A stretch of 64,000 nucleotides of DNA. Source: Lentzea alba. GTDB taxonomy: Bacteria; Actinomycetota; Actinomycetes; Mycobacteriales; Pseudonocardiaceae. The position numbers and the translations under genes are program-made. The notes under the pieces were generated by a model. That model saw only the letters and a program-made list of their open reading frames with translations. It ran no database searches and was not told where the DNA came from. Location of the stretch: the NCBI RefSeq assembly GCF_011067745.1, contig NZ_JAAMPJ010000003.1:620001-684000 (forward strand). The letters run 5' to 3'. This document shows positions 18,050 to 51,299 of the stretch, in pieces. Numbering within the stretch: position 1 is the first letter of the stretch; each line of letters starts with the position of its first letter.

Positions 18050-18098
18050 CACGCGGGGACGCTTCGTGTCCTCATAGGAAACGAAAGGTCCCCGCGTG
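18050..18098. terminator. 49-nt hairpin, bidirectional terminator (family copy 1)
   Basis: Eighteen-position arms, 18050-18067 with 18081-18098, pair at 16 of 18 positions. The element sits between the convergent ROK gene and the beta-helix gene. It has the same length and closely related arms as the hairpin at 32251-32299. Confidence 0.7.
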
Positions 18099-32250: not shown

Positions 32251-32299
32251 CACGCGGGGCCCTTTCGTTCGCTCTGACAGTACGAAAGGGCCCCGCGTG
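32251..32299. terminator. 49-nt hairpin, bidirectional terminator (family copy 2)
   Basis: Perfect 18-bp arms (32251-32268 with 32282-32299) and a 13-nt loop, between the convergent GH6 and Cip1-like genes. Same length and same outer arm sequence as the hairpin at 18050-18098, with compensating changes inside. Confidence 0.8.
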
Positions 32300-43936: not shown

Positions 43937-45907
43937 CTAAGGACTTGGCAGGGTGATCCTCGAATCGAGTCCATCGCTCCACCGCAGCACGATCTCGTTG
44001 CCGCGCACGATGAGCTGTGGGGTGGCCACGGCCTCGCCGCCCCGGTCCAGGCGCACGACGGCGGCGAGCACGTCACCCCGTGCCACGGGACCGGTCGTGG
44101 CCAGCCAGGGGACCGCGGTGTACTTGCCGAGCGGGGACGTGCCGGTGCCGGTGTGCACGCCGGCCTGGTCGAACCCGCGCAGGGCTTGCAGGGAAGAACG
44201 CAGGCGTGCCCCGGTGACCACGACCTCTTCGCCGTCCGCGGTCTCCTCCCGCGGCCGGGTGTCGGCCGCGACCGGCCAGCCGGAAACCCGCAGCCGGGAG
44301 CCATGGGGGGCACATTCATGGACGTGAGGTCCATGAATGTGCCCCCCATGGCTCTTCCGGGCGGGTGGGTCGCCGTCCACGCGCACGATCCGGATCTCGA
44401 CCGCGCTGCGCACGACGGAGACCACGAGCACGGGCGGTCCCTCGATGATCTCGCCGCCGCGGCCCGAGCCGTGGTCGGGGGAGTCGTCGGCGCTGGTGTC
44501 GACCCAGCGCACGGGTCCCCGTGACGCACCGGCCACCACACCGCCGGGCAGCTCTTCGGCGAACAACGTCCGGAAGCCCGCGCGGTGGCTGGCCGCACCC
44601 GCGGAGTCGAGCAGCACCACCGAGTTGTCCGTGGAGACCGGCATCGTCGCCGTGGAGTAGCCCAGTTTCGCGTACAGGGGCGAGTCCGCCCGCTGGTCAC
44701 CGGGCAGCGCGTGATCGGTGCCGTGGTTCACCGTCGTGACGATGCCGTCGGCACGACGCGCCGACACCAGCCAGCCCGGTGCCGCGATCACCCGCGTGTA
44801 GTCCATTCTCTCCACCGGCAGCGGCCGCTCTACGTCCGTCCACACGGGATGGTCGGCGGGCAGCGCCAGGCCCAGCATGCCCTTGGCGGCCCAGTAGGGC
44901 GATCCCGGTCCGGAGTAGGCCTGCCGCAGCGCGGGCCAGCCGCCGTGCCAGCCGAGGCGCAGCAGGCCGTCGGGCTCGAGAGCGCCGTGGTCCACGAAGT
45001 GCCGCAGCACCCCGGACGCCGCCCGCCGCAGCAGGCCGGGTGAGGGCCCCGGCACGCCGGTCATCGCGGCGACCCAGAACGGTGCCGCGGCGGCGAACCG
45101 GTAGGTGAGGCTGCGGCCCTGCATCAGCGGCGAACCGTCGGCGCCGAGCAACGCGGCCGCGTCCTCCAGGTACCGCGCGAGATCGTCGGACCAGGTGCGG
45201 CGGAGGTCCTGCGAGCACAGCGAGTCCGGGACGTCGAACAGATGCGTCCACAGCAGCGGGTACAGGTGCAGCGCCCAGCCCGTGTAGTGGTCGTACGCGC
45301 GTTCCTCGCCGTCGCTGAGCCACCCGTCCGCGCGCCGGAACGACGCGTGCAGAGCGAGGTCCTGCTCGACGTCCTCGACCGACCAGGGGCCGCCGACCTC
45401 GCGCAGGAACGACTCGACGACGATCCGGAACCACACCCAGTTGATCGGCGGGTACGGCTGGCCGACCACGGTGCCCAGCCAGTCCACGACCCGTTGCCGC
45501 ACGCCGTCGTCGAGGTGGTCCCACAGCCACGGCTTGGTCAGTTGCAGCACCAGCGCGATTGACGCGGCCTCGACCTTGGCCTGCCCCAGCTCGTCGGGCC
45601 GGGGCCAGGCCTCGGGTGAATGCGGATCGGTGCCCGCGGCGAGGCCCCAGGCGTACCGCTCCAGCAGCGCCGGGTCACCACCGCCCGCGACCCGGAACCC
45701 GGCGAGCAGGAACGTGCGCGCGAACCCTTCCAGCCCGTCGGAGACGGGGCCGTACCGGCTCGGTTCGCCGGGCAGGTCGATCCGCGCGCACCGCGGCGAC
45801 CAGTGCTGGTGGACGGCGTCGAGCAATTGGTCGGCCACCGCCTCCCAGTGCGCGCGGGTCCAGCCCGTGCGCGGGGAGAGGAAGCGGTTCTCGGGTGGGA
45901 GGATCAT
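43937..45907 (-). CDS. DUF2264 family protein (GH154 beta-glucuronidase-like), with palindrome insertion
   Basis: 656 residues from ATG 45907, which overlaps the dehydrogenase stop; no signal peptide, so cytoplasmic. Family blocks of DUF2264 (alpha/alpha-barrel, residues 1-380) include NRFLSPRTGWTRAHW, RYGPVSDGLEGFARTFLLAG, NWVWFRIVVESFLR, DGWLSDGEERAYDHYTGWAL and RSLTYRFAAAAPFW, followed by a beta-rich C-terminus. Some members are beta-glucuronidases of family GH154; I recall this from arabinogalactan systems and cannot verify it here. Residues of about 518-537 (KSHGGHIHGPHVHECAPHG) are encoded by a 57-bp perfect palindrome and look foreign: six His and one Cys in 19 residues. Confidence 0.8.
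   Translation of the reverse strand: MILPPENRFLSPRTGWTRAHWEAVADQLLDAVHQHWSPRCARIDLPGEPSRYGPVSDGLEGFARTFLLAGFRVAGGGDPALLERYAWGLAAGTDPHSPEAWPRPDELGQAKVEAASIALVLQLTKPWLWDHLDDGVRQRVVDWLGTVVGQPYPPINWVWFRIVVESFLREVGGPWSVEDVEQDLALHASFRRADGWLSDGEERAYDHYTGWALHLYPLLWTHLFDVPDSLCSQDLRRTWSDDLARYLEDAAALLGADGSPLMQGRSLTYRFAAAAPFWVAAMTGVPGPSPGLLRRAASGVLRHFVDHGALEPDGLLRLGWHGGWPALRQAYSGPGSPYWAAKGMLGLALPADHPVWTDVERPLPVERMDYTRVIAAPGWLVSARRADGIVTTVNHGTDHALPGDQRADSPLYAKLGYSTATMPVSTDNSVVLLDSAGAASHRAGFRTLFAEELPGGVVAGASRGPVRWVDTSADDSPDHGSGRGGEIIEGPPVLVVSVVRSAVEIRIVRVDGDPPARKSHGGHIHGPHVHECAPHGSRLRVSGWPVAADTRPREETADGEEVVVTGARLRSSLQALRGFDQAGVHTGTGTSPLGKYTAVPWLATTGPVARGDVLAAVVRLDRGGEAVATPQLIVRGNEIVLRWSDGLDSRITLPSP
44298..44354. 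repeat. 57-bp perfect palindromic element inserted in frame in the DUF2264 gene
   Basis: Two perfect 26-bp arms (44298-44323 and 44329-44354) around a 5-nt loop. The length is exactly 19 codons, so the reading frame is kept. A related but diverged palindrome lies at 51245-51299. Confidence 0.9.
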
Positions 45908-51244: not shown

Positions 51245-51299
51245 GTTGATGAGGGGAGCTTTCCCAAACCTCAGGTTTATGAAAGCTCCCCTCATCAAC
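51245..51299. terminator. 55-bp palindromic element at a convergent junction
   Basis: Perfect 19-bp arms (51245-51263 and 51281-51299) with an inner AAACC/GGTTT stem in the loop, between the regulator stop and the GH30 stop. Probably a bidirectional terminator. It is related in sequence to the palindrome inserted at 44298-44354. Confidence 0.75.

Follow-up and report, generated by a model that had tools for sequence, protein, structure and literature searches.

Among short palindromic repeats of the REP class, some occur inside ORFs, some are inserted within other palindromes, and for most conv-REPs the distance to either 3' end is no more than 20 bp (Di Nocera 2013, PMC3733652). Repeats of this sort for which no transposase is known pose an open problem, a case of which, stated in the same paper, is the CGTC REPs. 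In pneumococcus, the terminator-like repeat SPRITE is enriched between convergent genes and has been suggested to be a co-opted terminator (PMC3049150). The words Actinobacteria and Streptomyces are absent from PMC3733652 and from PMC6006769, and a literature search from which subscription papers were mostly missing returned, in the titles and abstract openings among the matches listed, no such repeats for Lentzea, Amycolatopsis, Saccharopolyspora, Streptomyces, or actinomycetes. The repeat described here came to light in a stretch of 64,000 nucleotides from Lentzea alba, referred to below as the window, in which one copy lies inside a protein-coding gene.

A palindrome within a DUF2264 gene

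The palindrome spans positions 44298 to 44354 of the window (57 bp, to which no strand applies) and is built of two perfect 26-bp arms around a GTGAG centre, just as an earlier note on this DNA had reported. Alignment of 38 copies from the genome resolves it into a 51-bp core, with 23-bp arms at 44301-44323 and 44329-44351 and the centre at 44324-44328, plus 3 further complementary bp at either end; these outer bases, GAG and CTC, are not common to the other copies, and the repeated unit is 44301-44351. The palindrome is genuine, and chance falls far short of explaining it. Perfect 26-bp arms with loops of 0-20 nt are expected about 1e-8 times per 64 kb at the composition of the window, where the runner-up perfect arm is 14 bp (loops of 3-12 nt) and one 18-bp perfect arm with a 13-nt loop is also found. 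The very stable mid-gene mRNA hairpin that the note anticipated is borne out by the computed fold of the surrounding 83 nt, at -73.9 kcal/mol with a z of -10.9 and none of 200 shuffles as good. A microRNA identity was rejected, as all four Rfam matches fell under the gathering scores and were to animal families that fit any long hairpin.

The host gene (43937-45907, minus strand) encodes a 656-aa DUF2264 protein (PF10022, E 1e-107) and follows, in the direction of transcription, genes for a transport permease and a 2-hydroxyacid dehydrogenase, with a gene for a GH30-type glycosyl hydrolase downstream. Some DUF2264 match is present in 20 of 24 Lentzea genomes (E up to 1e-20), and orthologues at 85-92% identity were found in nine of the genomes searched besides L. 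alba. Residues 517-537 of the L. alba protein are missing from all nine, leaving a clean gap in which none carries a non-palindromic segment of similar length. At the DNA level the difference is a 63-bp in-frame insertion on the minus strand (21 codons, 44294-44356, one of the equivalent placements, with coordinates derived by hand from comparison with orthologue DNA). The in-frame insertion proposed in the earlier note is thus upheld, with its size corrected from 57 bp and 19 codons to 63 bp and 21. Read from the sequence, a direct repeat of CCGGG (CCCGG on the coding strand) is found at 44294-44298 and again at 44357-44361, and the empty sites of the orthologues hold a single copy of CCGG, in most of them CCCGG. 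In the 63-bp gain, the 51-bp core is preceded by five bases and followed by seven, which close with the second CCCGG, and the bases adjoining the insert differ from those of the relatives in a way that makes the stem longer.

Within the 12 codons around the insert, five nonsynonymous differences separate L. alba from L. kentuckyensis (G013), its closest relative by DUF2264 identity, and none separates L. kentuckyensis from G005, but two further genome pairs give 3 and 3.5, so that a local burst of change beside the insert is not established. The dN/dS ratio between L. alba and L. kentuckyensis is 0.13 before the insert, a value that averages the whole divergence of the two and cannot prove function since insertion, and rises to 0.73 after it, as compared with 0.38-0.70 after the insert in the other four pairs. 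Judged by these ratios, the C-terminal part of the gene is loosely constrained and fast-evolving in all five pairs. The His-rich peptide is the direct spelling of one open frame of the palindrome, and the proposal that its HIHGPHVH stretch binds metal found no support, as nothing shows selection or metal binding. An AlphaFold2 model of the protein depicts the insert as a loop between two strands, with a mean pLDDT of 42.6 that is too weak to rest on.

A repeat of convergent gene ends and its sister families

BLAST and pattern searches of the 10.2-Mb L. alba genome located 39 places, of which 38 belong to what is here termed family A, so that the window copy has 37 counterparts and the repeated nature of the palindrome is borne out; the remaining place, L076, is a relative and is left out of the family A counts. 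Both 23-bp arms of the 51-bp element match the consensus exactly in 33 of the 38 copies, around a 5-nt centre that reads, with orientations merged, CTCAG in 15, CTCAC in 11, CTGAC in 9, CACAG in 2, and CACAA in 1. The outer flanks are not conserved, and many copies are preceded by A runs and followed by T runs. A search of L. alba with a 20-base arm at up to three mismatches gave 38 places in each orientation, of which one forward and one reverse place belong to L076, and listed no solo arm away from a 51-bp copy; a role as a DNA-uptake sequence was rejected on this account. Across 390 genomes of the Pseudonocardiaceae, the arm at up to two mismatches occurs 37 times in each orientation in L. 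alba and once in each in L. kentuckyensis, and elsewhere a variant arm is found in six genomes of genus g11 and once in G002.

Family A is a 3'-end element, mostly of convergent genes. With gene calls from a simple codon-usage caller made for this analysis, 28 copies lie between convergent genes (29 when L076 is included), eight between co-directional genes, and one between divergent genes, while the window copy alone is fully contained in a gene; at L092, the element and the end of a predicted gene share 36 bp. The gaps to both gene ends are 0-20 bp in 23 of the 28 convergent copies. Among the 37 copies not wholly in a gene, the convergent share of 28 compares with 126 of 748 neighbouring gene pairs in a background taken from 800 kb of one contig (P 6e-15). 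The likeness to the protein-coding palindromes of Rickettsia drawn in the earlier note finds no support in this distribution.

Family A is part of a superfamily of 51-bp palindromes of equal build and differing arms. A degenerate centre pattern, at up to two mismatches, matches 53 of the 390 Pseudonocardiaceae genomes, in 7 of 46 genera and in 18 of 24 Lentzea genomes, and the reversed control pattern has no match in any of the 390. The number of matches per genome ranges from 0 to 416 in the family and from 0 to 130 within Lentzea, with 112 in L. alba, 130 in L. kentuckyensis, and 75 in G006; these are pattern matches, and 10 of the 109 examined in full had fewer than 19 of 23 complementary arm positions. 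The rich Lentzea genomes are G000 (L. alba), G013, G006, G008, and G001, and the pattern finds no match in G003, G007, G012, G015, G017, or G023, although G012 and G015 still give 1-3 half-arm matches to family F. In 148 genomes drawn from the class, the sole pattern match is L. alba itself, and the control matched once in another genome. A 6.9-Mb genome of genus g11 (G181) holds the 416 matches, far above its relatives, and the ten listed are mostly at two mismatches.

Related families have expanded patchily among genomes. For instance, exact matches to the F half-arm number 61 forward and 61 reverse in L. alba, 46 and 52 in G006, and 3 and 0 in L. kentuckyensis, and family B (up to one mismatch) is represented by 83 and 82 matches in L. 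kentuckyensis, 47 and 50 in G008, 37 and 37 in G002, and 7 and 16 in L. alba. The window itself has a family F copy at 51245-51299, between predicted convergent genes with gaps of 15 and 18 bp, and at 18050-18098 and 32251-32299 two CACGCGGGG..CCCCGCGTG-type hairpins (family E), both also between predicted convergent genes. Many contig ends of the G002 draft fall inside B-type palindromes, and such elements may therefore fragment assemblies and have their numbers underestimated.

Since the arms are imperfect palindromes in their own right, the element is built like a REP doublet, or REPIN. The evidence comes from an alignment of 45 distinct 51-mers (46 rows were retained and L089 was left out), in which the rows were preselected for complementarity (at least 19 of 23 pairs matched, which 10 of 109 failed) and part of the arm is fixed by the search pattern. 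Covariation along the long stem is 0.488 against 0.149 in shuffles, with paired changes. Within the arm, pairing of position i with 22-i holds in 82% of cells, against 34-52% when the register is slid, and half-arm covariation is 0.252 against 0.159 shuffled, above all shuffles; two of five half-arm measures do not exceed the shuffles, namely those for pairs in which both sides have changed (reached by 111 of 500 shuffles) and for pair types (301 of 500). Like REPs and REPINs, the element thus joins imperfect palindromic monomers of the 20-40 bp class in an inverted doublet and is mainly extragenic near 3' ends, with 37 of 38 copies not wholly in a predicted gene. The alignment shows no conserved tetranucleotide that would correspond to the GTAG/CGTC tag at the hairpin foot, and GACGTC is present in some copies through the variable centre.

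The same sites in related genomes

Flank pieces of 37 family A sites were searched in L. kentuckyensis, where 32 were retrieved and 26 had both flanks in place, and in G005, where 35 were retrieved and 24 had both flanks. Different families sit at identical gene-end sites in L. kentuckyensis: at 11 of the 26 comparable sites, L. kentuckyensis carries a superfamily palindrome with other arms, none of them family A (7 B, 2 C, and 2 E-like by eye). The expected occupancy is 6-8%, based on 130 matches and an estimated 1600 or so convergent pairs, which gives a P of 1e-7 to 2e-6 that is rough because the number of convergent pairs is extrapolated. The remaining 15 sites comprise nine with another perfect hairpin of at least 9 bp nearby, five without one, and one that was not aligned. 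At L090, the L. kentuckyensis hairpin also persists beside the A copy in L. alba. None of the 24 comparable sites in G005 is occupied. Two of the 11 sites occupied in both L. alba and L. kentuckyensis, L099 and L102, have matching centres, and at L099 both species have the rare centre CACAA, though 7 and 8 of 23 positions differ in its two arms. The L. kentuckyensis orthologue of L085, designated L171, has no such palindrome but contains GGACCTGAGGT, the centre of an element and perhaps a decayed copy.

L. kentuckyensis does have an A copy at the orthologue of one L. alba site, L080, and family A was therefore probably present in the common ancestor at one site or more. Most simply, it would have multiplied to 38 copies in the L. 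alba lineage; the hairpins of the relatives are assumed to be the older state at the other sites. The compared sites other than the in-gene copy differ from the relatives by more than a clean insert, and a direct repeat at the edges (5 bp) is observed at the in-gene copy only.

The searches for a source covered transposases, parents, and donors. A Y1_Tnp profile search of L. alba, the sole transposase family searched, found no intact REP transposase (RAYT/TnpAREP); its one partial match (profile 34-121; L221, G000 C9:92367-92621) is open for 103 codons and has no superfamily palindrome within about 1.5 kb. According to PMC6006769, PF01797 aligns just in part with most TnpAREP groups, so that a divergent transposase could be missed. 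No autonomous MITE-type parent with family A ends was found at up to three mismatches, a parent with diverged ends being possible. Phage, plasmid, or viral origin was rejected, with no match of the window copy in plasmid and phage collections and no exact match of the degenerate centre in viral contigs. The mean flank similarity among copies is 6.1 (741 pairs), compared with 4.0 when the flanks are shuffled, and some pairs, L077 and L097 among them, share flanks on both sides. The flanks of L092 are the most similar to those of the in-gene copy (tied rank 8 of the 741 pairs), which is suggestive only of L092 as its donor. Copies' own flanks fold together better than mismatched flanks (P 0.001 at 15 bp, 0.083 at 25 bp, and 0.039 at 35 bp), a hint that the outer flanks may have been pre-existing hairpins.

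Proposed spread of the repeat and comparison with known elements

We favour, with a probability of roughly 0.55, a REPIN-like non-autonomous repeat that spreads into gene-end hairpin sites and of which the window copy is a tolerated stray. Family A would spread within Lentzea genomes as a hairpin-forming doublet of two imperfect 21-bp palindromes around a short centre, presumably mobilised in trans as a single-stranded hairpin. Copies would settle at gene 3' ends, chiefly between convergent genes and often where relatives hold another hairpin, and from their place and fold the convergent copies would be harmless and probably serve as two-way transcription terminators. The window copy would have strayed into a region of the DUF2264 gene under weak constraint, and may have persisted because its frame is open and the added length is a whole number of codons. 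The doublet build, the bursts, and the insertion with a direct repeat all speak for the REPIN-like reading. Against it, the Y1_Tnp search linked no enzyme with the element, the edge repeat is seen at a single copy while other compared sites show more than a clean insert, 5 of the 15 unoccupied L. kentuckyensis sites have no hairpin of at least 9 bp, the L090 hairpin persists, and two of the five half-arm covariation measures do not exceed shuffles.

Several of these observations also fit copying by repair, which overlaps with the REPIN-like reading and, taken as the whole explanation, is possible but distinctly less probable. Replication stalls or breaks at palindromes, and in the course of repair or template switching a family member would be copied, along with a few bases of its flanks, into another hairpin or a short homology. 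With one arm as the template for the other, the arms would remain perfect, and the centres would vary because the centre is the hairpin tip, in keeping with 33 of 38 copies whose arms are unchanged while the centres fall into five classes (15/11/9/2/1). The 11 of 26 L. kentuckyensis sites with another palindrome, and the other hairpin at 9 of the remaining 15, are likewise consistent with repair copying, as are the flanks common to pairs such as L077/L097, although stop codons and A/T runs account for part of the flank similarity (6.1 against 4.0). Next to the in-gene copy, the bases differ from those of the relatives so as to lengthen the stem, but the excess of amino-acid changes there is not clear (5 against 0, but 3 and 3.5 in other pairs), and both the short direct repeat of this copy and the bursts of single families in some genomes, which resemble mobile elements, argue for the REPIN-like reading over repair alone. 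A more doubtful proposal holds that overwritable palindromes are genus-wide, such that convergent sites are inherited and arms are swapped family by family in each genome and kept perfect by arm-to-arm copying; the rare CACAA centre, kept at L099 in both species despite the arm differences, points in this direction. It is unlikely that the copies are plain two-way terminators kept alike by selection, with the in-gene copy an accident. Such a role would suit the flanking A and T runs and the closeness to both gene ends (at most 20 bp in 23 of the 28 convergent copies), but it does not account for identical arms in 33 copies, given that the relatives have quite different arms, or ordinary hairpins, at those sites. 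Least probable by far is a selfish protein palindrome of the Rickettsia kind in which the peptide is of consequence, a reading for which one could cite the open, in-frame, His-rich insert and the dN/dS of 0.13 in the earlier part of the gene (with the limit on function since insertion given above); only 1 of 38 copies is wholly in a predicted gene, and the insert precedes the fast-evolving C-terminal part.

The range from 0 to 130 matches per Lentzea genome, the shared copy at L080, and the differing families at the same sites make it testable which factor multiplies such repeats. Also testable in Lentzea is whether repeats of this kind colonise the hairpins at gene ends in high-GC bacteria and take their place, and the in-gene copy provides a clean pair of filled and empty sites.

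Among known systems, the Rickettsia palindromic elements, as reviewed in PMC10969869, resemble the window copy as palindromic repeats in frame inside a gene, but they are about 150 bp long and nearly half lie in genes, unlike a 51-bp element with one of 38 copies so placed. SPRITE is likewise a hairpin repeat near 3' ends with enrichment between convergent genes, and differs in being AT-rich, with a long T-rich tract after its 18-bp stem; half-palindrome pairing is not described for it in the available text of PMC3049150. The closest counterparts are the REP doublets or REPINs (Bertels and Rainey 2011, PMC3116915; Di Nocera 2013, PMC3733652), as these accounts present them, which are also inverted pairs of short palindromes and mainly extragenic. 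The 51-bp Lentzea element, of a type with superfamily matches confined to the Pseudonocardiaceae in the genome samples searched, differs from these in its long, mostly perfectly matched arms and in the several arm families within one genus, and it has neither the GTAG/CGTC tag nor an intact REP transposase that could be found. Sharing the build and placement of a REPIN, yet with no such tag or transposase, the Lentzea element is therefore a REP-related variant rather than a REP.
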